Source: Thelephora terrestris
Lineage: Eukaryota > Basidiomycota > Agaricomycetes > Thelephorales > Thelephoraceae
Assembly: GCA_015956445.1 (NCBI GenBank)
Contig: WIUZ02000013.1
Location: 1,054,001 to 1,118,000, forward strand
Direction of reading: 5' to 3'
Length of the DNA: 64,000 bases
The position numbers and the translations under genes are program-made. Position 1 is the first letter of the stretch. Each line of letters starts with the position of its first letter. Of this stretch, positions 14,101-64,000 are shown in pieces. Under the pieces are notes generated by a model. That model searched no databases. It had not been told where the DNA came from and saw nothing but the letters and a program-made list of their open reading frames with translations.

Positions 14101-14114
14101 TTCACTAATCGCTC

Positions 14115-18690: not shown

Positions 18691-18695
18691 GCCAA

Positions 18696-20690: not shown

Positions 20691-20694
20691 CTCA

Positions 20695-20765: not shown

Positions 20766-20892
20766 ACCGGTAGGTTTACAGATGTAAAAAACATTTACAG
20801 GTACTACATCGCTTGTGTCGAGTACATGCTTAGCGTAAGTAAGTAGGCGTACAAAGCGGAATCGTACACACCAAAAAGCGGTCACGATGGCG

Positions 20893-37510: not shown

Positions 37511-37734
37511 GTGCTCCTCATTTTTGCATATTTCAAGTTGCGTTCATCCTCTAACATAGTTCGTAAGTAGTGAACGAGTCCTAAGACCGAAAATGAAACA
37601 TCCTGCGGTCTCAATTTCTTTTCTGGCGGGATGTAAATGCGATTCCCACGCATGATGCCCAGTACGCAATACCAGATGAACACGTTGAAACGGCGCCGAG
37701 CGCTCATCCACCCACTTACGCACCACTCTCCCCA

Positions 37735-38980: not shown

Positions 38981-39432
38981 CACGGAACCTGTGGAAATCA
39001 TTCTCATTGTCTCGTTCGGTTGATAAATGGAACCCCGTCGTATCGCCAAATCGTGGATTTCGCTGATTGGCTCACTTGAGCGGCGATTCCAGGGCGCCCA
39101 AAAATCCCGCTCCCTTCCAACATTCGCAGACAGCATCTTCTCGCCGCTCCGTCAGTAGTCTGGGTCTCAGAACGTATTGTCTGGTACTATACTGTTCTGT
39201 TTGTAACACACTGCAGGATCCCAAACCCATCGCATTATCACGTAGTCTCACGTAGTGTACACATTGCTCGCCCTCATTTTCAACACGTGGTGTCCACGTG
39301 TTTTATGGCACTTGAACCAGGGTCGTAGGCGGAGGGGACAACGTCCGGGTTAGTTTTCCCGCCCTTTGAAGTGACTTTCGCTTCCTCCCCCCATTCCTCA
39401 TCTGTACCCTCTCGATCACATTGCTAGGTCCT
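38981..39432. promoter_or_regulatory. B2-B3 intergenic region
   Basis: 450 bases containing the B3 promoter. Similar text recurs before B4 (41040-41520): CACGTGGTGTCCACGTG-like blocks and ACTTGAACCxGGGT. The two promoters therefore share descent. The nested CACGTG motifs at 39283-39300 could bind bHLH factors. Confidence 0.4.
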
Positions 39433-40659
39433 ATGTTTCTCGCTCCCTACATCGCCTGGAGCCTTTCTCCAATAGGTTCGGATTCATCGGAGGCGCAACA
39501 ACCCATCTCTGTATCAGCCAAGGCGGCCACCATCCCTGCGATCCCACAAGAAATCATCTACGAAATCGTTGATCATCTCGTCACCGATGCATATTTCAGA
39601 CCCATCCTCCGATCTTGCGCCCTTGTATCCAGGTTGTGGGTCATACCATGTCAGCGGCACCTCTTCCATACCGTTTTCTTCAGCCTCAGGGACACGTCCA
39701 AGTGGCTTGAGGTGTTCCCGGTTCCGGAGCAGAGCCCTGCCCACCATGTCAAGTATTTACACCTCTCGCTCGAAGGGAATTACTACGCTCCTCATGAGTT
39801 TTTTCAACGCATTCAGTCGTTCCCTAACGTGGAGGGAATCACCATGTCGGGTGACGGAGGCCCAGGCCAGTCGTGGTGGATGCCTTCGTCTGGGAGGTTA
39901 CCGCGGTCGGCGACTTCTTTGACTATAACCAGAGGCAAGATCACTCTCTTGAAGATCCGGAACGTCATGGCGCAGCTACCCAACCTGGACAGTTTGACGA
40001 TATCCGGGTCCCTTCGTGCAATGGATAGGAAGAAGTTACAGGGTATCGGAAAAGTTTTGAAGGGGAAGTTCTGCGGGCGGTTGCAGCTGAAAAGGCTCAG
40101 CAAAAACACTGACGCGGATATAGCGAACATGCTTCTCGAGATTCCAACTGGGTTATACTTTACCGAGATGGATATTCACGGCACCTACTATTGCCTCCTC
40201 TCAACCGCGAAGCTCGTAGAAGCATGCGCCCAGACTCTCGAGAAGCTGTCGTACGCTGTCAACGAGTACGGTAAATCCACTCCCCTTTCCTCACTCGCAC
40301 GATTGATATTGACGCTGACGCCACCTCTCGGGCTAGATGGCCTTGGGGCTCATGGCAAGTCTCTGAGCTTCGAGAAGTTGCCCAATCTCAGGGACATGAG
40401 GCTTACCGTTCATTGGACCGCTGGAGATCTACTTTGGGTTTCTACAGCTCTTGGGACAATCAAGCCCATCACCTCACCGCGGCTATCCACAATCCGGCTC
40501 AAGTTCATTGGACACGGTCTACCGTACATCCCATTCCACTTGCGGGGGCGGTTAATCCATGACCTTAAACTGATCGATGAAAGCATCGCCCGGATCGAAC
40601 ATGAATTTGCGGGGGTCGTAGACGTGACCATTATTGGGTATCCAGGGTTTGAGATCTAG
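39433..40659 (+). CDS. F-box/leucine-rich protein, family B, copy B3
   Basis: Exons 39433-40270 and 40337-40659, about 386 residues. It starts at the ATG of MFLAPYIAWSLSP; the codon further up is TTG. F-box at about 36-80 (IPQEIIYEIVDHLVTDAYF, LRSCALVSRLWVIPCQRHLF). The body has LHLSLEGNYYAPHEFF, RLPRSATSLTITRGKITLLK, RNVMAQLPNLDSLTISGSLR and TGLYFTEMDI. The 66-base intron has no stop and keeps the frame. The protein ends YPGFEI and lacks the last small exon of B2, B4 and B5. Confidence 0.75.
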   Translation: MFLAPYIAWSLSPIGSDSSEAQQPISVSAKAATIPAIPQEIIYEIVDHLVTDAYFRPILRSCALVSRLWVIPCQRHLFHTVFFSLRDTSKWLEVFPVPEQSPAHHVKYLHLSLEGNYYAPHEFFQRIQSFPNVEGITMSGDGGPGQSWWMPSSGRLPRSATSLTITRGKITLLKIRNVMAQLPNLDSLTISGSLRAMDRKKLQGIGKVLKGKFCGRLQLKRLSKNTDADIANMLLEIPTGLYFTEMDIHGTYYCLLSTAKLVEACAQTLEKLSYAVNEYGKSTPLSSLARLILTLTPPLGLDGLGAHGKSLSFEKLPNLRDMRLTVHWTAGDLLWVSTALGTIKPITSPRLSTIRLKFIGHGLPYIPFHLRGRLIHDLKLIDESIARIEHEFAGVVDVTIIGYPGFEI

Positions 40660-40679
40660 GCACCTAGATCGCGTAATAG

Positions 40680-41010
40680 GTGGTTATGAGGTCCTTGGAC
40701 GGTCCTTTGACCTTACAAGTTATCAAACAAAAAGTGAAGCCTAACGTCAATTGGGTTGCCGAAGGTTTACTTTGGATCCTTACAGCTCCCCACAATGAAA
40801 CCCGCCACCTTACCGCGCTTGTCCATTTCTGCGCTACGTCCCCGAAGACCTGAGGAAACAGTTGAAGCAGCGACCTTGGACTCGTCGCCAGAATCGAATG
40901 CGAACTCGTGGGAGCAGTGAACTTCACCACGAGTCAGCATCCAGGGTTTAGGGTGAGTGGTCTCGACTTAGATTCCCATTCGTCCCTCACAGGACTTTCA
41001 GCATGACGTC
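40680..41010 (+). pseudogene. 3' fragment of a family B F-box gene
   Basis: Contains GRSFDLTSYQT, LRYVPEDLRKQLKQ, an ARIECELVG-like stretch and a VSQHPGFR-like end, matching the last third of B2. Stops interrupt it and no F-box is present. It follows B3 immediately. Confidence 0.6.
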
Positions 41011-41523
41011 GTTGAATACGGTACCTGTGAATATTATTCTCATGTTCACGTTCGATTTGTCAGTATCCGACCGCGTTGTACCGTCCAGTCGTGGGTGTCG
41101 CTGATCGGTTCATCGGGCTCTGGTTCTAGGGCGTCGAAGATTTCGCTGCTCCTCTGATATTCGTAACGGACGGATGGCACCCCGCCGGCTCTCCGTCAAT
41201 ATTGGGCTCTGAGAACTCTCGAGATGTTCGGGCTGGCACCGCATTGCTTCATTTGTAGCACACCCTCAAGGTTTTCAAACTCGTCGTGTCATCACGTAGC
41301 GTACACGTTGTTATTAGGCTCGTGTTCGCAGCCCGGTGCCCACGAGTTCTAGGGTACTTGAACCGGGGTTGTAGGTGGGGATGGGGGGGATGCCCAATTT
41401 CCCGTCTAGGTCAGCCCGAAGTTAGCCTCCTCGCCGTTTAAAGTATTTCTCATCGACACCTTCTGTGCTCTCTAGATCATATATCCGATAGCATCCGGGG
41501 CCCTCGATTCGAAGCTACTTCCT
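41011..41523. promoter_or_regulatory. B4 upstream region
   Basis: Related to the B3 upstream region (see 38981-39432). No coding content. Confidence 0.4.
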
Positions 41524-42925
41524 ATGTTTCTCAATCGCTACCTGAACTGGCTCTTCAGTAGCCACCCACTTCTCACTCACCACTTAATCTGGTTGCCCCG
41601 AAGCCACCCACACCATGCTCCCTCAATAGGTTCGGAAGCCTCGGAAGCACAAAAACTCACCCCTACAGAAGACAATACGGCCGTCGTCCCCGTGATTTCA
41701 CAAGATGTCATTTACGAGATCGTCGACCATCTCGTCACCGATGCATACTTCAAGCCCACCCTCCTATCTTGCTCCCTTATATCTAAATCATGGATCACAC
41801 CATGCCAACGGTACCTCTTCCAAACTCTCTCCTTCAGCCTGAGGGATACGTTCAGATGGCTCGAGGTGTTCCCGGTTCCGGAGCAAAGCCCTGCCCACCA
41901 TGTCAAATACTTAAGCCTCTCGCTCGAAGGGAGTTACTTTGTTCCTGACGAGTTTTTCGAACGTATCCAGCTGTTTATCAATCTAAAGGAAATCGTTTTG
42001 TTGGGCGAAGGGAGCCAAGGCCAGTCGTGGTGGATACCTTCGTCTGCGATGTTACCGCAGTCTGTGACTTCTTTGACCATAATCAGAGGCAATCTCTCTC
42101 TCTCGGAGATACGGAACGTTATGGCACAGCTACCTAACCTGAACGATCTGACACTATCTGTGTCTTTTCGCACGAGGAATGGATTGCAGGGGTTTGGAAG
42201 AAACTTGAAGGGGAAATTTGGCGGACGATTGCAGCTTCACAGGCTCAGGATGGGCCCTGACGCGGATATCGCAAACATGTTACTCGAGATCCCAACCGGT
42301 TTACACTTTACCGAGATAGTCATCGAGGGCACTTCCTGGTGCCTCCTCTCGACCGTGAAGCTTGCACAAGTATGTAGCAAGACTCTCGTGAAGCTGTCGT
42401 ATACGGTCGACAACTACGGTAAATCTTGCCCTTTCCCTCATCCCACTGGGTCTTGCACGCGGACCTTTAACGCTGATGCCACATCTCGCACTAGGTAGTT
42501 TTGAGGCTCCCAGGCGATCCTTCGACTTTGCGCAGTTGCCAAACCTCAAGGAGATGAATTTTGCTGTAAAATGGCTCACCGGGGACCTACTTTGGATCCC
42601 TACAGCTCTTTCAACGATAAAACCCGTCACCTCGCCACATTTATCATCAATCCGACTCAGCTTCAGTGGCCGAGATCTACAGGAAATCCCCCCACACCCG
42701 CGGGAGCGCCTGATCAACGAACTTACAGTTATCGGTGAAGACGCTGCCCGGATCGAGCGCGAATTTGCGGGGATCCTGGATTTGACCGTGGTTTGGTACC
42801 CAGGGTTCGAGGTTGGTGGTTTCGGTCTCAGCCAAACCCTTTTCTCACAGATTTTCAGCATTGAAGTTCGTGCGGGGCCTGTGGAACGTCCTCCTCATTT
42901 TGGCTTGTGCGATTGTTCAGTGTAG
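41524..42925 (+). CDS. F-box/leucine-rich protein, family B, copy B4
   Basis: Exons 41524-42418, 42495-42811 and 42851-42925 give 428 residues with all phases closing. It starts MFLNRYLNWLFSSHPLLTHH. The N-terminus is hydrophobic and shared in pattern with B3 and B5 (MF--YL-W-F). F-box at about 60-105 (ISQDVIYEIVDHLVTDAYFK, LLSCSLISKSWITPCQRYLF). Leucine-rich body as in B3. Here the first intron is essential, since the unspliced frame stops at the acceptor. This confirms the conserved GTAAATC...CACTAG intron for the whole family. The C-terminal exon is longer than in the sisters. Confidence 0.85.
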
Positions 42926-43961
42926 GAAGTTGCTGGGTTGTTTATCCATGCACGCGACTGATTAGTTCACCCAGTACACATGCAGGATGGCCACGGCTGC
43001 GATTTACAGCATTAAGCGATGCAAATGGTGTATTTTAACCTGCGAGAATAAATTGACCGCGTGATGATTAATGATTATGGGGCAGGCCTTGTTTTGACGA
43101 CGCCCACACCTCCAACGGTACTCCTGTCCAAGCTCGTTTCTTGTCTCCGCAGGAAATCACGCTTAGTTGTACTGAGTACGATCCATTACAGAGACACATA
43201 GCGATGAAAGCTGCTAGTCATACCGGATGGCAGATATTGTCACAAACCTCACCAGGGGCTGTAAGCCCGTCGTGCAAAATGAGCAACCGTTCACTTTCAG
43301 ACATGGCTTTCAGCCAAAAACCCGAACCAAAAGCACCGACATCGGACTTCCGTGGTGACTTCCAAGTTGGTGGCAAAATTGAATCTGAATCTATGGAGAG
43401 TGTCGCGATCAAGAGCCGCGAGCTTTCTGGCTAGGAACGCCCCTTCAAACCCATAGCTTTAGAGAGGTGGTGTCTGTGTGGGAATGAGTTACCGATGTTC
43501 AAGTGATTGAAAGAGCGTTCGCTGAATCGCAAAGAGACTCTCCTGATCCGCAAGCGTCATCGTCATCGTGATCCCCTGGAATTAGTATTGACCAGGACTC
43601 CTCACCACCGTGCTCACCGCTACCACTGTAAAACCTACCACAGCTCATCCACCTCCGTCGAAATCGACATGATTCAGGCCTCAGATGCGGCCTTCTGTAG
43701 TTTCCCTTTTCCAACTCGATGTCATCTCATCTCATTTCCGTGAACGATGAATGCTTTCTTGGTTAGGCGAGCCCCACGCACAATACGACGTATCTGGGGG
43801 AAGGAAAACGCACGACCTGGATTGTATTGAAACATGGAAGCGCTCGAGTCCACATTGCGACCACGTGTTGACGATTCGTAAACTAGAGAGAACTCTGTCC
43901 CTCGGTTCTCTCTGCCACTCTGACCTCTCGCCGCCAAAGCCATCGCGTTCGATTCTTCCTC
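42926..43961. other. B4-B5 spacer
   Basis: About 1 kb. 43200-43330 weakly resembles 36000-36200. A 97-codon open frame at 43141 shows no domain. I see no gene. Confidence 0.4.
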
Positions 43962-45271
43962 ATGTTTCCCACCCACTACCTAGACTGGATCTTCGGCACT
44001 CATCCACACCGTGACCAGGCTCTCCCAACGGATTCGGAAACTTCGGAGGCAGAAGAGCCCACTTGTACGGAAACAGAGGAACTTTGCGTCCCCGCAATTC
44101 CACAGGACATGGTCCACGAGATTCTAGACCACCTTGTCGCCGATCCTGGTTTTAGACCCTCCCTGCGATCTTGTTCCCTCGTATCCAAATCGTGGGTCAC
44201 GCCGTGCCGGCAGCGGCTCTTCCACACGATCTCCTTCAGGTCTGCGGATACGTTTCAATGGATCATGACGTTCCCCGTACCAGAGCGAAGTCCCGCACAC
44301 CACGCCAGAGAATTAAACCTCTTGCTCGAAGGATATTCTTACGTCCCTCACGAGTTTTTCAAACGCATCCAGTCGTTCACGAACGTGAAGACGGTGACGA
44401 TGTCGGGCGGGAGAGATAAAGACTGGTGGCGGATATACTCATCTGGGGGGTTACCGCAGTCTGTGACCTCATTGACTATCGAGTACGCAAGCTCGACCGC
44501 CCTCTTGCAAATTTGGAACATCATGCTGCGGCTACCCAACTTGAACAACTTTTCGTTATCTGGGCCTCTTCGCACGGTGGAGCCGCAGGGTGTCGGTATG
44601 GGGAGAATTCTGGGGGGGGGGGGAAATTCCGCGGGCGTTTGCAGCTCTACGAACTCGAGAGGTGCTACACGAGTGTCGTGAACACGTTACTCGAAGTTCC
44701 AACTGGGCTGCGTTTTACCGAGTTGGATATTCGTGCCTCGCACAAGTACTTCCTCTCCACTGTGAGCCTCGCGGAGGCCTGTGGAGAGTCCCTCATGAGG
44801 TTGTCTTACACGGTCATTGACTACGGTAAATGCCAATCTTTCTCCTTGCCCAGCTGGATCTTGCATTCGAACACTGACACTGGTGACATATCCAGAAAGA
44901 GTTCAATGGGAGGACCTTGACCGGACCTTTGACTTTGTGCAATTTCCAAACCTCAGGGAAGCGAGGTTCAAGGTCCATTGGGCAGACGGAAGTCTACTTT
45001 GGATCCACAAAGCCCTGTCAACGATCAAACCCGACACATCGCGCTTTCATGCTCTCCAACTTGACCTTTCGACTCTGTCGCCGCCGCGCCTCGACAGCAC
45101 ATCCCAGGAAATCTCAGTCAGTGAACTTCGACTTATCACCGCAGAAGTCGCTCTGATCGAGCGTGAATTCGCGGGAGCGGTGGGTTTGACCGTGAATCTT
45201 CCCCCGTGGTTTGAGGTGGGTGGGTCTCAGGTTCAGACTCTATTTGATTTTCACAGGTTTTTCAGCATTAA
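43962..45271 (+). pseudogene. F-box/leucine-rich protein, family B, copy B5, frame broken at a G12 tract
   Basis: Exons 43962-44825, 44896-45215 and 45257-45271 follow the family exactly, starting MFPTHYLDWIFGTHPHRDQA with F-box IPQDMVHEILDHLVADPGFR. At 44612-44623 a run of 12 G residues puts the frame off by one. The family continues after it as FRGRLQLYELERC and TGLRFTELDI. Everything else, including both splice junctions and the VFQH end, is well kept. The break could be a very recent mutation, a length-variable tract, or a sequencing error in the homopolymer. With a different tract length the product would be about 398 residues. Confidence 0.65.
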
Positions 45272-48268: not shown

Positions 48269-50040
48269 TCACGCGTGGTTTACTGATGCGCTCGCCACCC
48301 GCAGGTCACCCCCCTCAAAACCGTCTCTGTCATGCTGCCACTCGAACAGCTCCCTGAGCCTCCCCTCATCAACGACCCCATCCTTATCCTTGTACTTGAA
48401 CTCGACGCAGGGAACCAAGTTCGCCATCTGCTCTTCTCCCTGACGTGGAATTTGAGCCTGAGGACCGGACACGATCCGAAGTTTCTGTAATCGTAAACCT
48501 GCGGCAGCCCTATCGCGGAGCATCTTCAAGAAAGGTACCGCCCAATCGCTCCAGCTTCCGTCGTGGGGAACCTCCAAGATGATGGTCGAGAGCGAATGGC
48601 ACGGCAAGCCCTCGAGTCGCAAAGGCCCACCAGGAGGGAGATTTGGTTGAGGAGAGAGGAGGCGGAAGATGTCTTTCATGGTGGCAAGTCCGCAAGAATC
48701 GATAACGAACGTTCGGAGGTTCCTCGACCGTTCGAAAACCTTGGAGAGCCAGCCCAGGTCTTGGCCCTTACCGGCAACGTCTATGAACTGCTGACTTTCA
48801 GCGAACCTGAACTTCTCTACGGATTGCAGGGGAAGCCTTTCCAACTCCTGGTAAGGCTCGTTTTTCCCCTCGAACTTCACCTCCCCGCTCGGTCCGCTCG
48901 CCTCGATGCAGTATCCAGACCTGCGTTGGATGAACAGGTTCTTGACCTCGGATAGGTTCTGGAGGTGTTCGAGGGATTCAGGGAGGATGACCTCGTACTC
49001 CTCCATTTCCGCCCACAACAAGAACGATACGGACGCTCCTCTGGGAATCGAGAGCTTGCGGAGCAACGGTAGAGGCGAGTAGAAGTCGAACTTGAGGGTG
49101 CGCAAACGAGGGATAATCACGGCCCCTTCCGGCCGAGGATCCGTCTCGTCGGAGCATTTGATGCTGAACGCAACCGTCTCGAGCAAGGGGTTCGATACGA
49201 CCAAGTCGAGGATCGCGGTCATAGAGGCGAAGGGATGGGCCAACTCGAGATTGACAAGGTGCCTGAGCTTGAGAATCTCGGGCGTGAGGTCGATAGACGC
49301 GAGGCGTAGGTCCTTGAGTGACGGCATGCTCCCGGAGATAATCCTGAGCCTATTAATCGACGAACCCTGGTCCGCATTTCTCCGGTACAATTCAAGCCTT
49401 TCCAGATTCGGAGAAACTTTGGTGAGTCCCCCGAAAAGGGTCGTGAAGTTCGCCTTGTTCAAGGTGCAGCGGAGGCTTCGGAACGGTGTATCCTTCGATC
49501 TTAACAAAGGGACCCTATATTCGTCGGCGTGTCAGTTAAGCCGCACCCCACTGATGTAAGTGAATCCGTCCATACAATCCATTGGGAAGATTGCATATTT
49601 CCGCGTCAACCGGCACGTTCTTTGATCTCTGTAACCATACTTTAAATAACCTGAGAGGACACTTGGTGGAGACTTGGGTCCAATTGAGCGGACATTCGAT
49701 AAACACTCGACGCCAGTAGGTACAGACGCCGGTGATGCTGAGCATTGCGTATCGGTCGTCACGCAGATACACGGCGACCTCGAGCAACAAGTCGGACGGC
49801 ATGTTTCCCCAGGATAATAACTTTTTAACGACTTTTGGGACACAGGGTTTGGCCCGTGCAGGCGTCGCTTGACCGAGAGCTAGCATCAGAGCCTGAGTGG
49901 GCAATCAGAACCCTCGTCCCCCAGAAACCGCAAGCACGATGAGCGCTCACCCTCGGCAGTATAACTCTAGGTGCCATTTTTGAGGTTTGGGAAGGATCCA
50001 GGTTTCGTCGTCGCATCGTAGTCGGGGCAGTCGTCGTCAT
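48269..50040 (-). CDS. F-box/leucine-rich protein C (typical Agaricomycete F-box)
   Basis: Exons 49951-50040, 49576-49892 and 48269-49514 give 550 residues with phases closing. The second intron (61 bases, GTATGG...ATATAG) joins CNLPNG to LVPLLRSKDTPFRSLRCTL. The F-box lies at about 54-95: MPSDLLLEVAVYLRDDRYAM then ITGVCTYWRRVFIECPLNWT, the standard basidiomycete form with its conserved W-P-W spacing. Leucine-rich repeats follow (VSPNLERLELYRR, MPSLKDLRLASIDLTPEILK, LRHLVNLELAHPF, RSRNLRTFVIDSCGLATMKD). It is unrelated in detail to families A and B. Probable SCF adaptor, substrate unknown. Confidence 0.85.
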
Positions 50041-50511
50041 GGGGGATCAGTGGGAACCCTGAGATAGCACTGGCACCACTCGACGCTCCCTTCAACGGGC
50101 TACACCCGGATCACCACCCCGGTCACGAAAAAGGTAACTCGTTTCCACGCCCGCTATGCTTGATTTCGTCGCTTAAAACTCGGTAGACAGAGATTAGATA
50201 TTTCAACGTACCTACAGTAAAATTTAGGACACGATTGGAGGCACAGGTATCTTGAGAACGGGATATCATAATGAGCTCCTGGGTTTTGGGTCACGACTCA
50301 AGAGTCACACGGATCAGTCGGCGCCACCGTGACAATCAGCCAGGGGGGGCGCGGCAGCGCACCCAGGGACACCTAACTATCAAAGCCCCGATAGGACCCC
50401 GGAAGTATCGTTCACTACCCAAATTTGGGTGAACCCCCTTAAGCGCACCCGTATATGGTAGTAAACGCCAAACAAACACAAATACAGACGTAATATGAGC
50501 TCGGCTAATGA
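50041..50511. other. Left flank of the KDZ transposon
   Basis: Host intergenic sequence up to the target site. It includes a CCAAATTTGGG palindrome near 50418. No gene recognised. Confidence 0.5.
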
Positions 50512-50518
50512 GCAACGG
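50512..50518. repeat. Target-site duplication, left copy (GCAACGG)
   Basis: Exact 7-base match to 62366-62372. The next bases outward differ (A before, G after), which fixes the length at 7. Confidence 0.85.
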
Positions 50519-51775
50519 CAGTAGTCCTTACTCAAATAGTACTTTTCTCCGGGACTTTGTCCCAGAGCAGGGGAATAAAATTCCATGGACAGGGTAAAAC
50601 CTATTCCCCAGGCTTACCTTGGCTCACGGCGGGGTTTTACCATTCCCAGGAGATTCCCACGACCTATTCCCCTCGCGTAGGGGATGACCTGGTGGCATCC
50701 CTGACCGATCACGTGTCTGGGATGTTGCAATCGTGAGAATTTCGCTTTTCCTCCCATCACGCGTCACCCGCTGGCTTCCCCGGGCTTCCCCACGCGGTTC
50801 GCTCGCATCAATTAATTCCGGTAGGATTCCCATCCGTGGGAAATATCATTATTCTGGTGCCGCGCGTCGTTCAGCCGCTGGGCGCCACCTCCCATCAATT
50901 ACTTCGGGAGGATGCCTCCGGTTATTCCCCCTTCCGGTTATTCCCCCTTCCGGTTATTCCCCCTTCCGGTTTCCCGCTCCCGGCTTTCCTCCCTCCCGGC
51001 TATTATCCACCCGCGGTACCCTCCCTTCCCCTCCCTTATATAGACACGGGTATATATTAAATATATTCAATTTGAAATGAGTTGCGAAATGAGCGCCCAT
51101 AAAAAACGCGAATAAAAATAAAATAAAAATACCATTAAATACCGTAAGATAACCGCAGTTTATCCCGCTAAACGCGACTCAAATCCAAAAAGAATTGAGC
51201 CAGAAATACTCGATTTAGTTGCCAGCGAGCAGCAGCATCGACGGCGCGTTTCGGGAATTCCCGATCGGGACCATTCCCTTTTTTGGATCGCCCGCTCAGT
51301 ATTTTTGGCCAGCGTTTGGGGGACACGGCCTCCCGTTCTGTTATTTAAATGTATAGAGTAGTTACAGAACTATATACAAAATTTTGGAGCAGAAAAAAAG
51401 CCGGAATGGGCCGGATCTTGCACACCAGGCCAGGCGCGCGCGCGCTGCATGCCACGCCTGGGCCCCTTGTAATAATTATTAAAATCAGCAATATATTGGA
51501 AGGTAGGAAACACGGGAGGGACTACTGAACGCCGGTATTCCTTATGTCTACAATTATTACATACGAGGAGAAAAAAATCACAAGTCCATAAGCGCCCCCA
51601 AGGGAGAGTGACTTGGCGCAAAAAAATTACAAGTCCATAAGCGCCCTCAAGGGAGAGGGACTTTGCACGAAAAAATTCCAAGTCCACAGGCGCCGCGCGC
51701 TTTCACAATTTTCCCACGGTTGCTCATTCCGCCGGTTTGAACAGAGAACAAAAATCTTTGAATTTCACCGCCGCA
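50519..51775 (+). repeat. KDZ left terminal inverted repeat (1257 bp)
   Basis: Outer part holds palindromic motifs (GGGACTTTGTCCC). The middle has three or four copies of a TTATTCCCCCTTCCGG unit near 50930-50985. The inner end has three ~58-base units of CAAGTCCATAAGCGCC type (51587-51700). Such ordered subterminal repeats are usual transposase-binding candidates. Confidence 0.92.
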
Positions 51776-51829
51776 GACTATGTACTACACAAAAACAAAC
51801 AGGGCAATAATGGCGGGAGTCAACGGTAC

Positions 51830-54108
51830 TCAAGAACTCCTGGATTCCAGAAGTTTACGAGATGGCTTGGGCTGGCGCTTTCCAGTCGCACGGGCCATCC
51901 AAGTTACCTCTGGTTTGGATTTCTGGGGGTTCTGGGAGGGTGCAGGTTGAGCGAGCGGAGCAGGTGGTTCGGACGCCTGGAGTGCCTTGTGGGATTCCAT
52001 AACCTGGTCTATCACCCACCTGATGTCATCCACTGCTTTGTCGAACTCAACCCATTCCTCCTCAGATCGGATGGAGAATGCCCACCACGTAGTAGAAACA
52101 ACAACTAGAAATAAACCGTTCTGTCCACGAGCACCTATCTTGACCCAATTGGTGGTGCCCTCGTTGTCTCTTGGAAGCGGCCACCCCTTCCCACGGCGCC
52201 AGGGTGGTTGGCACGAGGTCCACCACTTCATCCAACCGTCGCGGTACGACGAGACATTAGAGATGAATGGGATGTGAGCCGGCAAGTAGGAACGGGTTTT
52301 CATCCATTTGGTCACCTCCTCTGGTCGAGAGATGATGGAAAGACGAGGAGACTAAAAACTTAATTAGCGAGTAGAATAAATTGAAAGATAATATACACGT
52401 ACACCATTTGCGGGGGGAAACTCTTCGAGACGGAGGAAGGAAGCGACCATGTCTGTCCACTGCTGACCGGCATGTACAGTCTGGAAGTACTGTATTGCCG
52501 GTGGGATAAATGGCATGGAACCATCAAATACGAACGCCCCTGCAGGTGAGGATGGCCTTGCGAACCGATTGAAGGCATCTGGGGGAAGATCCGGGGGAAG
52601 ATCCAGGGGAGGATCCTGCTCGCTCGTGGGCTGATCAAGGAGGTCGGCAAACTCAGTGGCCTGGTCTTCAGGTGGACTGATATCGGGGGAAACGGGTGGT
52701 ATGGTCTGGTGAAGAGGAGGTGATTCATCATTGGGCCTGGGTGTGGTTCGTTGGGGTGTGGGAGATGGTTCCTGGAGTGGCGGCGAGGGCAAGGGAGGAG
52801 GGGTGAGAGAGGCAGGAGGTATCGCGATAACTGGGCTTGTGGTCGCTTCAGCTGGAGACGGCAGAGGAGAAGTGAGGAGGGCCGAAGGCATGTCAACAGC
52901 TGCGCTCGTGGTTGGAGTCGCCTCAATGACCGGAGCTGGAGTGGCAGCAGTGTGCCCCAAAACTGTTGGATGGCCCATCCGCCGAGAAACCTCGTCGCTG
53001 GCTGCAATACTGTAAGCGAGTGCCCCAAAAAGGTTGAAGTTTACTTACAGTAGACAGTGCGCAACCACGCAACAAACGCTTCGTGGAACACCTCGAAACC
53101 CGACCAGGATTGGGAGAAGGGGAGGTCTTGCCCTATTGATCTTCCTGTCTCGTAGCTAAGGCGACGGATTGGTGAGGATGCACTGGCATAAGATAACGAA
53201 GGACTTACAAGTGAGTGCTGAAGTCCCCGTTCGCAGCAGGGGTTGGGCCACCTATAAGGATAATCGCCTTCATACCAGTTGAAAGCTCGACCTGCTCCAA
53301 CACCTGGTCGATTGTGCTTGGGAGAGCGTCGATACAGCTGAAAGCTTGTTAGTTTGCGACAGCAACATCAAAGGGAAAGGGAAACGAACCGTTGAATGTA
53401 TACATTTTCCGCAGCCAACTCATCGGCATCCACCTCTACCGTCGCCTTCCACGGCTGTTTCAACCTTCCCTCTCTAGCTGCCAGTTCCTTATTGATCCAG
53501 TCCTGATGTTCTTGACGTTCTTCGTCCGTGAAGAGTGAGCACTTCCACCGCATGAAGCTGTTGTGGAAATCGAGGCGGTCGGTGAAGGTGTTGGCGGTCG
53601 CAAAGGGAGACAACAGCTCAATAACCGATTCTTCTCCCCGCCGGTCCCAGAGGTCGTCAACTTCTTGGCGAAGTTCTTCGCGGAGTGGAGAGTCATTCGA
53701 GCGGTAGAAGCGAGCAGAGAAAGCATGGTGAAACTGAAGTGGTAAGGGCTTTCGGTCGCCTTTTCTGGTCAGGTCGAAGAGAGTCTGGGCTTTGGGGGCA
53801 GCAGCGAGACGCTTTCGGTATCTAAACCACTCGCTAATTTGCTGGCGACAGATTGTAGTTAGCAGGGAGTAGATGAAAAAAGACGCAAGACTCACATTTT
53901 TTCGCCTCGCATCCATAAGCTCCTGCAAGTGATTTTCATCCTTAGCTGCCTTTCGCTCCTTTTCGTTTGGCTCGGTCGTCCACTTCGCAAGGAATTGTTT
54001 CGAGATACGGGCGTAGTATGCATTGAGGCCGTTCGAATTCCTCTCCCGCTCCAGGTTCGGCATGAAACTTTGGAGGAACTCGGCTTGTTCAGGGGTGGCC
54101 CAGGTCAT
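51830..54108 (-). CDS. Conserved partner gene of the KDZ element, 682 residues, function unknown
   Basis: Six exons (53896-54108, 53390-53841, 53209-53337, 53049-53182, 52403-53001, 51830-52351) close in phase, from MTWATPEQAEFLQSFMPNLE to the stop. The N-terminal half is charged and helical with aromatic anchors (KQFLAKWTTEPNEKER, ISEWFRYRKRLA, LPLQFHHAFSARFY). The middle has a Pro/Ser/Thr-rich linker. The C-terminal part has IQYFQTVHAGQQWTDMVASF, EVTKWMKTRSY, WMKWWTSCQPPWRRGKGWPL and TTWWAFSI, a strikingly Trp-rich block. No DNA methyl-oxidase HxD motif (TET/JBP), nuclease or protease motif is visible. Similar hypothetical proteins are common in Agaricomycete genomes as far as I recall. Its intact state inside a young element suggests a role in transposition or element fitness. 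Confidence 0.8.
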
Positions 54109-54280
54109 CCGGGCAATTACCCTCCAAGCACAGAAGGCACGACGAGTGAGGAAGGAAACAAGAGGGGCCCAAGGAGTTAGACGAGGGAGTGTGGCAAGGG
54201 AAGTGGGTGGGCTTCGACTTCGACCGTCAGGATTTAAAATAAAATAAAAGCCTCCGCTGGCATCGTACGCGCAAGCGACC

Positions 54281-54355
54281 AACGCACAGACCACAGACGC
54301 ACGGACCACAGACGCACGGACCACAGACGCACGGACCACAGACGCACGGACCATG
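54281..54355. repeat. 15-bp tandem repeat (about five copies) upstream of the partner gene
   Basis: Unit GCACGGACCACAGAC repeated head to tail, the first copy with one change. It lies about 175 bases before the partner gene's start codon. Confidence 0.85.
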
Positions 54356-54636
54356 CATATGGACGTAAACTGACAGACCACATTCTGACCCCGATCACGG
54401 CCAACACTTCCAAGCGTGCAGAAGCATCGACGCAATCCTAAGTTCAAACACCACATATCCTTGTATGACTACGTGATACTGTAGGGACTGCACAAGCGAG
54501 CGACGAGTACTAATGGCCTTGAGAGTGAGAGCGAGGACAGGTGAGATAGAAAAAAGATCCTATGAGTTATCTAGTGCGAAATGAATTCCCCAATCCGACA
54601 AACTACCGTCACATAATTTCAAATCGGTACCGTGTG

Positions 54637-55782
54637 CTAAATGAGGAGTTCGGTCCTACAACGGTTGATGGCGCACTGAGCAATAGAATATATGAGGGAC
54701 TCGAACTGCGAACGAAGGAGCTTGAGGTTGATGTGCTTGGGTCTAGAAGCATCCATGCCGATGAACGGGAGGTTGACCTCAGTCTGGGTGGTGGAAGAAA
54801 GTTCAATCTTGGCTTTCTCAGCAGCCTCCCGAACGCGTTGTACGGCCATAGCGTTGCCGGAGAGGTCGAGACCCGTGTCTTTCTTGAATTCCGCAAGGAT
54901 GTGTTTGACGAGGGCGATATCGAAGTCCTCGCCGCCGAGGTGGGTGTCACCGTTGGTTGACTTGACCTCAAATACGCCACTCTGGAGCTCAAGGACGGAG
55001 ATGTCGAAAGTTCCACCTCCCAGGTCATAGACGGCCGCAACGTTCTCCCCAGACTTGTCCATACCGTAGGCAAGGGCGGCGGCGGCGGGTTCGTTGATGA
55101 CCCGGAGCACATCGAGTCCTGCGATCTTTCCGGCATCCTTCGTTGCTTGTCTTTGAGCGTCGTTGAAATAGGCTGGAACGGTGACAACGGCGTGTTTGAC
55201 TTTCTTCCCCAGATACTGTTCGGCGGTTTCCTTCATCTTGACGAGTATCATGGATGAAAGTTCCTCTTTTCCTGACAGGCGAGAAGTAGTGGGGTCACTG
55301 AGGGCCGGTGGTAAGGAAGAGAGTGAAGGTGTTTCGACGGTGGAGGGGGAGATGGGGGAAGAGAGCTGCTGCACACGACACTGTTATCGCAGAGTCCTAT
55401 TAGGGGCGCCGTACCTCGTCATACAAACTGAGTGAGTACTGACCTGCGTGTTCTCAGAGGGCGATTCAACAACGCGTGCCACATACGAAGGCGGAATTTG
55501 GTCAGGGAGCGAGTCGGTCGCGACGAGGGCATGGTGAGTCGTTGGACGTGTTGAACGGGGCGGAGATGTTGAAATAGCAGACATGGCGCTATTGAGGTAG
55601 GGAACTGGTGACGAGGGCGAAATGAGAGTGCTGGAGTAGGAAGCTGGAGACCACGAAGTCGAGTCGATCAAGGTAGAGTTGTAGGGTTGCCGGCGCGAAG
55701 TCGAGTTGATCAAGGTAGAGTTGTAGGGTTGCCGGCGCGATTTGCTGTGGGTTCCCGCGCCATCCGAGCTTCGCTGGGCCAT
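54637..55782 (-). CDS. Chimeric gene: Ser/Pro-rich leader fused to a mitochondrial Hsp70 ATPase fragment
   Basis: Two exons (55444-55782, 54637-55380) close in phase for 360 residues. Exon 1 (from [20 protein letters not shown]) is low-complexity and holds a doubled [10 protein letters not shown] unit. Exon 2 joins another Ser/Pro stretch to a piece of Hsp70 running from [20 protein letters not shown] through [54 protein letters not shown] and [13 protein letters not shown] to [10 protein letters not shown]. The DnaK/Ssc1-type text ([20 protein letters not shown]) shows a mitochondrial Hsp70 origin. The first ~110 residues of the ATPase, its last lobe and the whole substrate-binding domain are missing, so chaperone activity is not expected. 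The captured part has no intron. Confidence 0.7.
55660..55745. repeat. Two-copy ~42-bp tandem duplication
   Basis: The segment GTCGAGTCGATCAAGGTAGA through TTGCCGGCGCGA is repeated once with minor change. It lies in exon 1 of the Hsp70 chimera and codes the doubled [10 protein letters not shown] motif. Confidence 0.8.
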
Positions 55783-55888
55783 CGAGTATGGCAGAGTTCC
55801 CGGGTTGAATCGAGGGCGCAATAGAGAGAGGGGGGAATAGAGAGCAAGTAGACAGAGTGAAAGTGTTATCTTGAATGGAGCATAGGCG

Positions 55889-56760
55889 GTGATGACAGGT
55901 TCCTGTCGAATTCGGACTCGGACTTGGGACTGGAAGGAGTGGAAGGGGAGATTTCGGGTGGAGCAGCGAGGATATTCGCAGGGAATATGTTGTGACCGGG
56001 TTGAGAGTTGGTGAACTTGAGTCGATGTCGACAGCAGTCGATGCGTCTTGCCAAAGTATGGGCGGTGGTGACAGGCTCTTGCTGGATGTTGAATTCGAGC
56101 TCGGCGACCTGGTACTGGAAGCAATGGAAAGAGAGATTTTGGAAGGAGCAGCGAGGATATTTGCAGGGAATACGTTGTGACCGGGTTGAGAGTTGGTGAA
56201 CCCGAGTCGATGTCGATCGAGGCGACGACGGTCGATGCGTATTGTCGAAGTATGGGGGATGGTGACAGGTTCTTGCTGGATGTTGGATTCGAGCTCGGAG
56301 ACCTGGTACTGGAAGCAGTGGAAAGAGAGATTTCGGAAGGAGCAGCGAGGATATTTGCAGGGAATACGTTGTGACCGGGTTGAGAGTTGGCAGTGAGATG
56401 TCGATCGAGGTGATTGCGGTCGATGGATATTATCAAAGTGTAGGCGATAGTGACAGGTTCTTGCTGGATGTTGGGTTCGAGTTCGCTGGGACTGGGAGGA
56501 GTGGGAAGAGAGATTTCGGAAGGAGCAGCGAGGATATTTGCAAGGAGCACGTTGCAGCTGGGTTGGGAGTCGGCCGCTCAAGTTTGCGGTATCGCGGTGT
56601 GACAGGTTCTTGGTGGATCTTGGATTCGGACTCGGCCTGGGAGAAATGGGGAGACACTTTGGGGGAGGATGAGCAAAGATATGCAGAAGAAATTCGTACG
56701 TACCTTACAACGTGGTTGAGGGCTGGCCGTTCGAGTCGATAGTTAATCGAGGTCATGGAC
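55889..56760. repeat. Minisatellite, five units of about 150-195 bp
   Basis: TGACAGG blocks at 55894, 56069, 56263, 56451 and 56600 each start a similar unit containing AGAGAGATTTCGGAAGGAGC, GAGGATATTTGCAGGGAATA and GACCGGGTTGAGAGTTGG. The reverse strand is open across several units but no start or domain is evident. It lies between the chimera's start codon and the transposase promoter. Confidence 0.85.
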
Positions 56761-57141
56761 AATGCATGTCGTCAACAAGTGCGTAAAGATACCATAATCG
56801 GGCTGCAATTCACAATAGAGAGTCAGCAGCGTGTGGATAATGAGGACGTTTCATTAACTCGTGATGGCCCCTATCTACATAATCTGCATAAATCCATACA
56901 TAAAACGAACGGATGGAAGTCCGTAGGTATCTGATATAATTCATTTGAGATCAAGGATCTGCCTACTGATTGCGGCCTTGAGTCCGCATGGAGAAACAGG
57001 GAGAAACTCGCGACTTCTCGATCGCCCTCATTGTCTCTTATTATGTCCCGCGTTCGCCTCCCCTTCTCTCAGCTCCTTCTCTCTTCTCACCACGATTCCT
57101 CACGCCCTGGCCCCCCTCGTATATCTCTACCGCCGTCGCCA
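56761..57141. promoter_or_regulatory. Transposase upstream region
   Basis: 380 bases between the minisatellite and the transposase ATG. The stretch 57057-57120 is CT-rich on the + strand, as often seen at fungal transcription starts. An in-frame ATG at 57043 would add 33 residues; 57142 is preferred because the Lys/Arg-rich protein text begins there. Confidence 0.4.
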
Positions 57142-60100
57142 ATGGTCGTTTCGCAGGAACGAAAGAATACCAGGACCAAGAAAGCACCTCGCCGAGTGTC
57201 CGTTGGGATTCGCAAAAACATCCCTTTCAAAAAAGGCGAGGTCGTTACACGTACCGAAGTTTCCCGGAAGGTCAACAATCGCGTCTTGACCAAGTCGACC
57301 AAGGTCCTCGTCCCCATAGCTCCCTCCGACCCTCCGAAACCGCCAGATCCGTCCCTTCTGCCACCCCCTGACCAGGACGCTCCCACTCCCTCAAAGCAGT
57401 CGCGCAAAGGTCCCAGCCGTTCAGCTGCAGTAGGCCTCCCTCCCCCTCCTCGTTCTATTTAACGAACTAATATCTATTTAGACGAGACTAGAAGAGTGGC
57501 TCCAGTACAGGGAAGAATTTTCTGACGAGTTCATCAAGCACGAAGCACTACACCTGGGGGATGAACCATCTCCCTGCCAGACGTGTGGTGACAGCAACGC
57601 GTTGTTCCGTTGCTTGAACTGCTTCTCATGCGGTTCATCTTGTCAGTCCTGCCTCGTTTCACAGCACGCACACGGTATCCTGCACAGGCTCCAGGTAAGT
57701 CGGCGTTTATTTACCCATGCACCGCGTCTAACATTCTATTTTTTTAGAAATGGAACGGGTCGTTTTTCGACGACACGTCGCTCTTTGAGCTCGGCGTGTC
57801 GCACCAGCTTGGTCACGACATCAACGATCCCTGTTCTCTCCCATCCGCCCCCGTCACGCTTACACTATTCGACCTCTCGGGTGTTCACACAATACGAGTC
57901 AAGTTCTGTCTATGCGAGGACAACGGGGAGGAACCTGCCGCCCGCCGTTGCCAACTCCTTCGTGCCCGCTGGTTCCCAGCAACTTGCATTCGACCCAGCA
58001 CTGCCTTCACATTTCGCCTTCTCGACTTCCTCCACAAGCTTCAAACTCAAAGCAAGATCAATCTCTACGACTTCTATACTTCTCTCGTGTTTGTAAACAA
58101 TTCTGCTGGCCAGAAGCCTGCCGTGGTACGAGTCAATTTATTGCACGTCTGCATGACTCACCCAAACCATTTGACAGTATCGGTACAATGAATTCTCGCT
58201 CGTGTTACGGATTTGGGTTCACCTGCGACAGCTTCGACGCGGAGGTGGGGTTCACGTTTCGGGTGGTTTCCAAGCACTCGCACCAGGGTCGCTGTCTGTC
58301 GAATGTCCTGCATGTCCCCATCCTGGGAAGAACCTTGTCTCTCCGCAGGTAGACAGGTAGTTGCCGCCGATTTTAAATGTATTTCTCGCTGTTTGACTCA
58401 TGTATTACTCTAAAGTTGGCTTAACACGCTTTACGTCTCGATGGACGCCAACTTCAAACTCAAGCAGAAGGAAAGGGGTTTCAGCGACCCCCCTCTCTCG
58501 AACGGGCTCGCCTATATGGTCCCAAATCAGAAACTTCAAGAGCATCTTTCTCATTGCTCAAAATCGGGCCAGACCGGAGAAGTAAGACTTTTTAATTATG
58601 ATGGTCCCTGGTGCGCGCTGATCGTAATTTTCCATCAGATTAATACTTGCGGTTCTTCGTTCAATGCCGTCAGCCAGGCCTATACGAAGTACGCCAAGGG
58701 GTACGCTGTTACCGGCGTCGGCGGGGTTGACTGCGCACGACATGGTTTCAAGCGACCGAATGGCGTTGTTGACCTACAACGAGGGGAACGGTGAGTCAGC
58801 CTACGGCTGCATTTGTTTCCCAGCTGATCGGCGGGGTTAGATATTGCAATATGGACTTCGCGCTGATGTCAACCTTGGTCCCATCCTTGAACGCCGGCAT
58901 AACCCGAATCCTCATCTCTTATGACATTGCATGTCAGTGGCACAAAAATTTCCAAGCACGTCTGAAAACCTACAACGCCTTTCCTCCCCTCCAACTCTCC
59001 GCTCTCACATACTGGAAGGTCGTCGTTCCGAAGTTTCACCTCCCTGGGCATGGTCAGGAGTGCCAGTTGTCCTACAATCTGGCATACACGAAGTGGGCCG
59101 GTCGGACAGATGGTGAGCGTATAGAGGCCGGATGGGCACAGGTCGCCCCCATGGCAACTTGGACACGGGAGAGTGGCCCGAACGCCCGTCGTGGCATCCT
59201 AGACGACCACTGGAATGCCGGCAATTGGAGCAAGACGCTAAAACTTCGTAAGTTTCCGCTCCCTTCCTGCAACACCCTCCCTCACCCTTGATACAGGTGT
59301 GGCCCTCAACAGAAACCTCCAACGCTCAGTCGCATGGAGCACAAGCCAGCGGGAGGTTGCCACTCTCATCTCCGGGAGCTACCCGGCTGAGATTGTTGCC
59401 AAGTGGCGTGAAATGCGGGCCAACTTTGATCGCGACCCCTCTAGGCCCAATCCATATAAGGAAGTCGAACGACGTAAGTTTCCTCCCTTTCTTATATCCG
59501 TCTACTTATCCAGCCCCTAGATCTCACCATCGCTGAGCTACAGAAAGAGCTTCTCAAGGAAGCGAAGCCTGCCTCCGACGCCCATCCGCTTCCCGTTGCC
59601 GATGCGCGGTCCTCAAATGTATCCCCTGGCACGCTTTTCCAAAAGGCGATCGAGGTTGAGGATCGAATGTATGTATTCTCTTTGATTTCAACGACGTTCT
59701 CTCATATCCATTTACCTCAGTCGCGTACTCTCTGCAAAATTGGCGTCAAAGGTCTCCACTGTTCGCCATCAAGTTGACACCCTCGAGCTCCGAAACTCGA
59801 TCTCACGGAACCTTGCTGAATTTCGCCGATCCCAGCGTCTCTTCATGCCCGCTCTTGGCCCCATTCTCGACGAAGCGTGCGACGACAAACCCACCGAGGA
59901 CTCATTCAAGCTCTTTCTTCCATCTGAACTTTCCGTGGACGACCGGGTGGCCTGGTGCCCTCCGGGAACCCCTGCCCTCGAGTTTCGGTTCCGTTACGCT
60001 CAGGCCGATGATAGCCTTGCCGAAATGCGTCGCCTCCTTCGTCTCAAGCGGAATCTTCGTGACGAAAATTCAAAGCACCTTCACATGGCCCAGAGGTCTA

Positions 60101-61028
60101 TCACACGGACCAAAGGACTGTTCGAGAGTTTCCATACCCGAATCCACCGCTTCGCAGACCGCTATTCCCACGCTCGCAGCGCAATGCTTGCTCTGGATCC
60201 AGATCAACAGTATAGTCCCGGGTGGATGGAACGGTATCAGAAACTGGATGGGAAAGACATTTGTGGTCCCGGTCGTGAGGAAAGTGATACGTCTGAGGGA
60301 AAGTTCACGCCCTCCTGGATTTGGCTGGTGCCTCGGCTGTCTCATCCTCCTCCCGCCGTGTCTCCATCAAATGCGACAACCCCCCCGTTAACGAGTCTAC
60401 TGCAGCAAGCGACCTAGAGCTCACTGACTCGATGCGTGCCCACTGGGCGAAGTGCCAAGCTCGAGCAGAACGATACGAAGAGGAAGTTTTGCTGACCGTC
60501 GAAGAGATGGGTCGTACCCTTTCTTACTTCGAGTGGAAGCGATCTTGGTGGCTCTCCCTTCAATCTGAGCGAGAAATGTCAGACTCCCCCCCCCCAGCTA
60601 GCGTTCAACGTGGATTGCGAGCATACGCCCATCGTCAGGCAAACATTTATGACACCCTGATCCATTCATTCGCAGACAAGTGGAGGGAAACTTTAAAGGC
60701 TCATAACCTTTATCCCGCTTGGATGTCTCGCTACCCCGCTACCGCTCATCCCCACGACCACTCCCAACCGGGAACCGAGCCCAAGTCGCCCACCCATGCA
60801 AGTCACAATCTCCCCCCCTCGACCTCTGCGCTACCTCACAACGACAGCACAAGCATTCCCCTGGCAGATGATATGGACACCAGCGACGACGGCGACAACG
60901 GAAACAATAACGACAACAATAACGACGACGACGACGACGACGACGACGGTAACAATAGTGACGGCGACTATGTTTTTGACGATGCGGACGCATTTGAGTT
61001 TGATCTTGACGACGACTTTATGGCTTGA
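57142..61028 (+). CDS. KDZ transposase with N-terminal CxC2 cysteine cluster, 1094 residues
   Basis: Eleven exons (57142-57429, 57482-57694, 57748-58125, 58178-58356, 58416-58581, 58639-58790, 58841-59247, 59297-59473, 59521-59668, 59721-60274, 60406-61028) close in phase. A basic N-terminal tail precedes the CxC2 zinc-binding cluster (CQTCGDSNALFRCLNCFSCG, then SCQSCLVSQHAHGILHRLQ). The RNase H-fold core has the three expected acidic positions: MDANFKLKQKERGF, ILISYDIACQWHKNF and GRTDGERIEAGWA. Also present are KYAKGYAVTGVGGVDCARHG, FKRPNGVVDLQRGERYCNMD, VPKFHLPGHGQECQ and LDDHWNAGNWSK. A long helical region follows, and the C-terminus ends in an Asp/Asn run. The tenth intron (131 bases) is the least certain, but it alone restores phase. 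Confidence 0.93.
60910..61020 (+). repeat. GAC/AAC trinucleotide-rich acidic tail coding region
   Basis: Imperfect (GAC)n and (AAC)n runs code the transposase's final Asp/Asn-rich segment. Mirrored valine-rich open frames on the other strand are by-products. Confidence 0.85.
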
Positions 61029-61108
61029 GCACACTTCTTTTCCCCCTTTCCTTACTGTCATACGCCCATTACCTACCTACCCATACATTTTTGTGTGCTA
61101 AGTACTCT

Positions 61109-62365
61109 TGCGGCGGTGAAATTCAAAGATTTTTGTTCTCTGTTCAAACCGGCGGAATGAGCAACCGTGGGAAAATTGTGAAAGCGCGCGGCGCCTGTGG
61201 ACTTGGAATTTTTTCGTGCAAAGTCCCTCTCCCTTGAGGGCGCTTATGGACTTGTAATTTTTTTGCGCCAAGTCACTCTCCCTTGGGGGCGCTTATGGAC
61301 TTGTGATTTTTTTCTCCTCGTATGTAATAATTGTAGACATAAGGAATACCGGCGTTCAGTAGTCCCTCCCGTGTTTCCTACCTTCCAATATATTGCTGAT
61401 TTTAATAATTATTACAAGGGGCCCAGGCGTGGCATGCAGCGCGCGCGCGCCTGGCCTGGTGTGCAAGATCCGGCCCATTCCGGCTTTTTTTCTGCTCCAA
61501 AATTTTGTATATAGTTCTGTAACTACTCTATACATTTAAATAACAGAACGGGAGGCCGTGTCCCCCAAACGCTGGCCAAAAATACTGAGCGGGCGATCCA
61601 AAAAAGGGAATGGTCCCGATCGGGAATTCCCGAAACGCGCCGTCGATGCTGCTGCTCGCTGGCAACTAAATCGAGTATTTCTGGCTCAATTCTTTTTGGA
61701 TTTGAGTCGCGTTTAGCGGGATAAACTGCGGTTATCTTACGGTATTTAATGGTATTTTTATTTTATTTTTATTCGCGTTTTTTATGGGCGCTCATTTCGC
61801 AACTCATTTCAAATTGAATATATTTAATATATACCCGTGTCTATATAAGGGAGGGGAAGGGAGGGTACCGCGGGTGGATAATAGCCGGGAGGGAGGAAAG
61901 CCGGGAGCGGGAAACCGGAAGGGGGAATAACCGGAAGGGGGAATAACCGGAAGGGGGAATAACCGGAGGCATCCTCCCGAAGTAATTGATGGGAGGTGGC
62001 GCCCAGCGGCTGAACGACGCGCGGCACCAGAATAATGATATTTCCCACGGATGGGAATCCTACCGGAATTAATTGATGCGAGCGAACCGCGTGGGGAAGC
62101 CCGGGGAAGCCAGCGGGTGACGCGTGATGGGAGGAAAAGCGAAATTCTCACGATTGCAACATCCCAGACACGTGATCGGTCAGGGATGCCACCAGGTCAT
62201 CCCCTACGCGAGGGGAATAGGTCGTGGGAATCTCCTGGGAATGGTAAAACCCCGCCGTGAGCCAAGGTAAGCCTGGGGAATAGGTTTTACCCTGTCCATG
62301 GAATTTTATTCCCCTGCTCTGGGACAAAGTCCCGGAGAAAAGTACTATTTGAGTAAGGACTACTG
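61109..62365 (-). repeat. KDZ right terminal inverted repeat (1257 bp)
   Basis: Mirror of 50519-51775 with the same length and, by eye, the same sequence. It starts 81 bases after the transposase stop codon, so the transposase 3' end probably lies inside the repeat. Confidence 0.92.
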
Positions 62366-62372
62366 GCAACGG
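62366..62372. repeat. Target-site duplication, right copy (GCAACGG)
   Basis: Partner of 50512-50518, directly abutting the element's CTACTG end. Confidence 0.85.
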
Positions 62373-63200
62373 GGACCATACGCGATCACTGAAGTTGGCA
62401 GGGGGAGGTTACCCATCCATTTTAGGTTATGCGTATTCTAACTTTATTGGAAGATCCGTCCTTCATTTTCTGTTGGCTCAGAGGGATATTTTGTTCCATG
62501 TAGTAATGGCTACAGCTTTGTGTGCGAGTGGTTTGCAAGAAAATGCGCCCGCTGTCGAGTTAGCTGAGGTTGTAGTGAAGAGGTCTATAAGAACTCTTAC
62601 TAGTCCTTCTTGGTTTACTTAGAAGCTAAGCGTTAACAACTAAGTAGGCTGGTTGAGAAGTCAGTTATCCCGACTATCAACTCCACAGGGTGGGCGGGGT
62701 TTCGTACTTTCCGGCTCCTTGTCCTGATGAGTTCGCTGAAGGAGGTTGTAGGTCCTTCAGATGTGTTCAGAGGGGTTCAGTAACCTTTATCACTACTGCA
62801 CGTATATTCCCTGGTCCAAACACCTAGTAAGAATGTAAAGGGGGTTGCTGATCTTGATAAGAATGGAGTTCCTGATCTACGCTGATGATCGGGAATGGAG
62901 ATAATGATGTGTGAAACTGATACGATCGAGGCTGTGTATGAGGCTGTGAAGAAGGCTGTGTAGAATGCTGTGCACTGTGGCTGTGTAAGTGGCTGTGCTG
63001 TGGCTGTGTTAAGGGGGTGGCTGTGCTAATACTTCTGAGGCTGTGCTGATATGTCTGAGTAGTTTTGATGATCTGTCAATATACTGCTGAGGTACGTCCA
63101 AATGCTGCTGAGATATGTCTGATAACTTGATACTGCTGAAACTTGAGAACCTGTCTTGATAAGATAAACTTCTTGATATGTCTGAGATACTGATACGTCG
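62373..63200. other. Right flank of the KDZ element, low-complexity
   Basis: A 75-codon open frame at 62395-62622 shows no domain I can name. From 62900 to 63190 the sequence is built of GGCTGTGT- and CTGATATGTCTGAG-like short repeats. It may be the internal part of the LTR-like element that follows. Confidence 0.35.
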
Positions 63201-63975
63201 GATACCAATGTGGTACTATTACTAAATCTGTCTGTCACCTAGTCAGTCACTAGTCTGAGGTAGAATACTCTCTGCCTGAAGGGTCTGCCTTCAGCACTAA
63301 CAGAGATAAGGATATTGCTACGTCACAGAGTCAAGTGTACTAAGCTTATTCAGAAGTCCAAACTTAGAACTTATTCACACAGAGGTGGGGCTCAAAATGG
63401 TATGTGATTACTGAAAATCACTCAACCACTCAGGCCTAAGGAGGTGAGGCAAAGTAGGGGTCTTGGTGAAAAGGGGTAGAGTAAAAGAGGGTGGGTTATA
63501 GAGAGAAGAGGGGATAGAAGGGACAACTACTGGCCAGTGGCCAACAGCTGTTGGGTAGAGAGAGAGGGGGGTAAAAGGTTATGGGTGAGTTGCCTTTCCT
63601 TAGAACTGGGGGTGAGTTCTTTATATACTTTTTCATGTGAGATTATTCTAGAACGTTCTATGGCCTTCTACTGTATTCTATGGTAATTAATGGTGTGACA
63701 GACGTCACAAGTGTGACAAAATGTCACAAAAGCGTGACCGATGTCACATGGGGTGTGACGTTCCGTCACCTTCTAGAATATTCCGGCAAGTTCCAGGATG
63801 TTCCAGCGCATTCTAGGATGTTCCTGAACTTTCTGTAACATTCTGTAACATTCCATGAGTTTCTTGTCCTTATCTAATCTAATCTTATCTGATAAGACTG
63901 TTATCTTATCTAATCTAATCTTGTTGTGGTGAATTATCATAAATAATGACATGGTTGTTCTCATGTCCGACATCC
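63200..63975 (-). mobile_element. Probable LTR of an old LTR-retroelement (fossil fragment)
   Basis: Read on the reverse strand, the segment looks like a long terminal repeat. An upstream part carries repeated GTGACxxxxGTCAC-type motifs and TTCTAGAA-like blocks, a TATATAAAG box follows, then a pyrimidine-rich leader. An ACCACA end stands directly before TTGGTATCCG, which resembles a primer-binding site. No matching second repeat or polyprotein is in the window, so the family (copia or gypsy kin) is open. It appears to be a partial, inactive remnant. Confidence 0.4.
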
Positions 63976-64000
63976 GCGGGGAACTTTTAAACGATCGTCC

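Follow-up and report, generated by a model that had tools for sequence, protein, structure and literature searches.

The locus at 50519-62365 of the window, the window being the whole 64-kb stretch of Thelephora terrestris DNA that was analysed, raises the question of what a pair of very long and perfectly matching ends says about the history of a transposon. The original prediction took this 11,847-bp KDZ element to be an apparently young copy with all its parts present, which joins two claims: that the identity of the terminal inverted repeats (TIRs) dates the insertion, and that the transposase gene is complete. The locus allows both to be addressed, since a single KDZ element here displays its ends, its target duplication and its gene set side by side (Table 1). 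The account that we consider probable is an autonomous-type KDZ transposon with Kyakuja-like ends, whose arms were rendered identical by recent copying and which carries a passenger derived from an Hsp70 gene.

Table 1. Features of the KDZ element, its flanks and the related transposase on L009. Positions are those of the window, except in the last line, where they are those of L009.
Feature	Position	Strand	Description or basis
Left target-site duplication	50512-50518		GCAACGG; 7 bp match, 8 bp fail
Left TIR	50519-51775	+	1257 bp, first bases CAGTAGTCC; 0/1257 mismatches against reverse complement of right arm
16-bp subterminal unit	50917-51004	+	5.6 copies; tandem repeat in left arm
Second multi-exon gene	51830-54108	-	At most 707 codons; rough splice model, exon borders provisional
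Mitochondrial Hsp70 fragment	54694-55266	-	191 codons, part of ATPase domain; PF00012 (1.4e-93) and PDB matches
194-bp tandem repeat	55920-56554		3.4 copies; between the two divergent genes
KDZ transposase gene	57142-61028	+	Splice model with KDZ and CxC2 domain matches
Transposase exons 1-5	57142-57429, 57482-57694, 57748-58125, 58178-58356, 58416-58581	+
Transposase exons 6-9	58639-58790, 58841-59247, 59297-59473, 59521-59668	+
Transposase exon 10	59721 to about 60327	+	End uncertain
Last-junction stretch	60275-60419	+	Candidate readings: a long intron, a short but weak one, a shift of frame
Transposase exon 11	about 60420-61028	+
Right TIR	61109-62365	-	1257 bp; begins 80 bp past transposase stop
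Right target-site duplication	62366-62372		GCAACGG; 7 bp match, 8 bp fail
L009 KDZ transposase	1572-5127		Several introns, at least one in-frame stop

Ends and target duplication

The element terminates in CAG...CTG. Its inverted repeats had been described as 1257 bp long, equal in length and identical wherever compared, and base-by-base comparison of the whole arms confirms this, with 0 mismatches placing the 95% upper bound of arm divergence at 0.24%. Even the internal tandem arrays, built of 16-bp and 49-bp units, are identical in both arms. The 7-bp direct duplication of the target was recovered as well, with GCAACGG on both flanks and the match stopping at 7 bp. The terminal 15-mer, with up to 2 mismatches allowed, finds 2 matches in the window (0.14 expected), both of which are the element ends, and no further copy of the element was found within these 64 kb.

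Within the arms, the motif GGGGAATA occurs six times per arm, three of them in the 16-bp array, and once in the 59,844 bp of remaining window sequence, both strands considered; this motif, together with the array, is a putative transposase-binding site. Loss of CpG was not seen in the element, where the observed/expected ratio is 1.11 for the TIR and 0.95 for the interior, and a search of Rfam over 50000-64000 returned nothing at gathering score.

The transposase and its relative

The assignment to KDZ transposons is borne out by the predicted transposase, which carries a KDZ transposase domain (PF18758; 3.3e-62, positions 2-216 of the 217 in the profile) and an N-terminal CxC2 cysteine cluster (1.6e-30). 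Nine of its introns are canonical, running from GT to AG over 47-59 bp, and exons 1-10 join into an open frame of 905 codons. The KDZ/CxC2 type and the shortness of the introns would suit a basidiomycete host.

Relatives were sought in viral and genome contigs. Patterns of KDZ-core peptides gave 2 matches in viral and 17 in genome contigs, none of which was confirmed as a relative. Scanning with a degenerate motif yielded 29 loci, 6 of them viral and 23 from genome contigs; L009 is the sole one to encode a KDZ relative, and every other tblastn match has an E value of at least 1.1. L009 is a contig from a MAG labelled as the cyanobacterium Rhizonema sp., with 'Dictyo' in the contig name, and looks like carry-over from a lichen fungus. 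It may be a damaged copy, since an in-frame stop lies inside the aligned core. Three acidic residues, D363, D487 and E551 in the numbering of this analysis, are common to the window transposase and L009, and we take them to be candidate catalytic acids of the KDZ transposase. On the TIRs L009 is uninformative, because its DNA has no significant match to the element and its inverted repeats reach only 23 bp.

The last junction of the transposase gene

The prediction of an 11-exon transposase in which every phase closes holds for the nine canonical introns and for the frame through exon 10, but the candidates for a tenth intron either score low or remove a SWIW motif. The frame must shift before about 60420. 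Among in-phase introns from GT to AG that retain SWIW, the best reaches 2.9 bits. Widening the splice scan upstream brings up higher-scoring in-phase candidates, chief among them 60275-60405, of 131 bp and 6.4 bits, and 60284-60405, of 122 bp and 6.1 bits; both would excise SWIW, which is kept in L009, and even the longest of the nine canonical introns is less than half the length of either. These scores are read against 12 reference introns from two gene models, three of which belong to the second gene, whose model is the rougher. Scored with a matrix from which it is omitted, each of the 12 lies within 4.3-14.8 bits, and within 8.5-15.5 bits with a matrix that includes it. L009 has a canonical-looking intron directly after SWIW, which favours an intron near 60328 in the window transposase.

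The alternative that best survives is a recently disabled copy, in which a length change in the linker that precedes the C-terminal region would have thrown the last ~200 codons out of frame, so that the element now depends on other copies for its movement. We regard this as a tentative possibility, to be held at less than even. It draws on the obligatory change of frame and the poor scores of all short in-phase introns, on a homopolymer run within the junction stretch that would fit a frame shift, natural or from sequencing, and on the C-terminal part of the transposase (60420-61028), which still finds its match in L009 at E 6.9e-15. An error in sequencing, the use of a weak intron or splicing of the 131-bp intron would look just the same, however, and L009 has its intron at the equivalent place.

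The reading from which we started, a young and fully intact copy whose TIR identity means recent insertion and whose 11 exons splice in frame, is in our estimate doubtful. As to splicing, it can point to the nine good introns, to the L009 intron, which makes one near 60328 plausible, and to the in-phase candidate 60275-60405, whose 6.4 bits are within what the modelled introns reach (4.3-14.8); against this, the introns that keep SWIW do not exceed 2.9 bits, and the 131-bp one costs the motif and is out of proportion to the other introns. Consequently, of the claim that all parts are present, the ends, the duplication and the transposase domains stand, while completeness is uncertain on account of this junction. 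For a full-length transposase made from the present copy, neither a working nor a broken state is favoured.

Origin of the identical arms

In a cut-and-paste element both arms move along with the rest, and, unlike the LTRs of retrotransposons, they are not rewritten upon insertion. Identity of the TIRs therefore gives no insertion date, having been moved and not re-copied at transposition, and the description of the element as apparently young does not follow from it. This weighs directly against the reading of a young and intact copy, which draws on 0 mismatches in 1257 bp and an exact 7-bp duplication. The duplication does provide a separate, weak hint at a fairly recent insertion.

Identical arms instead suggest that they were recently homogenised, that they arose recently, or that they are an artefact of the assembly. 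That the assembly used the sequence of one arm twice is improbable: tandem arrays that agree exactly are indeed unexpected for arms ageing independently, but the 7-bp duplication lies directly outside the arms and the sequence inside them differs. Beyond the perfect arms, a diverged inverted similarity runs inward for ~20 bp, with a score that 4 of 500 interior pairs drawn at random also reached, and it might, as a weak indication, fit the edge of a conversion tract. In bacterial insertion sequences, conversion of one TIR by the other has been described (PMC3004938).

In the explanation that we prefer, that of an autonomous-type KDZ transposon with recently copied arms, one 1257-bp arm would have been copied onto the other by gene conversion or by repair across the inverted arms. 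The identity of the arms would be owed to such copying, and the insertion itself would not need to be recent. The transposase would cut at CAG/CTG and make target cuts staggered by 7 bp on insertion. The TIR may double as a putative transposase-binding region and as the 3' end common to both transcripts. The case cautions against the use of TIR identity as a clock.

Second gene and captured Hsp70 fragment

The transposase gene and a second multi-exon gene are divergent and point outward, each ending just inside a TIR, with stops 80 bp from the right and 54 bp from the left repeat, respectively; given this position, both would share 3' sequence. Pieces of the second gene had no match in Pfam, and in a tblastn search of the 29 motif-scan loci the best of its three matches has an E value of 0.41. 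It is a feature to look for in relatives of the element. The text of the original prediction omits the second gene, the 194-bp repeat and the Hsp70 fragment.

The Hsp70 fragment is in frame over all its 191 codons and free of stops. Among PDB entries it matches mitochondrial Hsp70 proteins best, the human one included, at 304 bits as against 265 for DnaK; its identity to human mortalin is 70.2%. Because both ends of the protein are missing, we take it as a fragment and not as a working chaperone. When compared with 11 relatives, namely mortalin and ten bacterial proteins, it departs from 5 of the 83 columns that are invariant among them. With each relative left out in turn as a control, human mortalin breaks 8 of 91 columns and L039 7 of 90, and the other nine break 0-3; some decay of the fragment is possible, since these nine of the 11 break fewer columns than it does. 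The open frame and the modest number of broken columns, read from the sequence, suggest either a recent capture or selection. The piece would be a passenger picked up from the fungal host, and would thus exemplify the capture of a host gene by an element that has retained a transposase gene of its own. A match to NAD-GH on the strand opposite the fragment was set aside as a known antisense artefact of Hsp70.

These features invite a broader conjecture, which we consider unlikely as it stands: a Kyakuja-type lineage would combine kilobase TIRs, kept identical by repeated arm conversion and used by two outward genes as their common 3' end, with a transposase gene of its own and the pickup of host genes such as that of mitochondrial Hsp70.

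Surroundings of the element

The remainder of the window contains several repeated gene families. A tandem family of four copies occupies 2422-22222, with minus-strand ORFs of about 320-470 aa, and two of its stretches, 2422-5242 and 15334-18189, align over 2.87 kb at 91.6% identity, indicating a recent segmental duplication. At 8222-10309 lies an NLR-like protein composed of an NTPase (nSTAND1-like, just under the cut-off) and TPR repeats. Three diverged tandem gene copies are found at 27279-34885, of which the one copy scanned had no Pfam match, and about five diverged tandem repeats at 36411-45194, with an F-box (PF00646, 4.3e-4) in the one ORF scanned. The right flank of the element, 62372-64000, stands out from the other measured stretches by a low CpG observed/expected ratio (0.48) and by short tandem repeats.

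Comparison with known systems

The founding paper on KDZ transposons is that of Iyer et al. 2014. Zisupton elements have a KDZ transposase domain encoded by a multi-exon gene; the window element resembles them in both respects and differs in its duplication, which is 7 bp and not 8 bp. The original prediction had singled out this difference as an oddity. In Kojima 2025 (PMC12730594), 8-bp duplications are given for Zisupton and for one Dileera element (Zisupton-1_PGr), from which the window element likewise departs, whereas the two Kyakuja families of Laccaria bicolor, Kyakuja-1_LB and Kyakuja-2_LB, have 7-bp duplications and CA..TG ends and "have no TIRs". The 7-bp duplication is thus in print for Kyakuja and serves as a lineage marker: it is expected in a Kyakuja-like element, and long TIRs are not. 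The window element shares the 7-bp duplication, the CA..TG ends and a KDZ transposase with Kyakuja, but its 1257-bp TIRs set it apart from the two L. bicolor families, in which the lack of TIRs is perhaps not defining. According to that paper (PMC12730594), both families carry a TET/JBP gene; Pfam showed none in 27 element stretches scanned (10+1+6+10, partly overlapping, and a subset of the six-frame ORFs).

KDZ copies are, in the original prediction, usually decayed; the KDZ1-3 elements of Cryptococcus are described as full-length and mobile, about 9-11 kb in size, with TIRs of 139-241 bp (PMC12810828), beside which the ends of the window element are, as had been stated, unusually long. The likeness extends to size, to a CxC domain in the KDZ transposase, and to the presence of TIRs and target duplications. 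The Cryptococcus elements differ in having 8-bp duplications (4-8 bp for KDZ2/3) and CxC1, where the window element has 7 bp and CxC2 as its best domain. Pack-TYPE transposons of plants, non-autonomous elements with captured host coding fragments (PMC8903248), offer a parallel for the Hsp70 piece, but, unlike them, the window element has a KDZ transposase gene of its own, possibly out of frame at its end. Relatives with long TIRs may already be known, since a supplement to PMC8290104 is said to give TIR motifs of KDZ or Plavaka elements of Marasmius oreades.

On these comparisons the element would best be filed as a KDZ element that is Kyakuja-like by its ends alone, and it separates the signature of a 7-bp duplication and CA..TG ends from the absence of TIRs.
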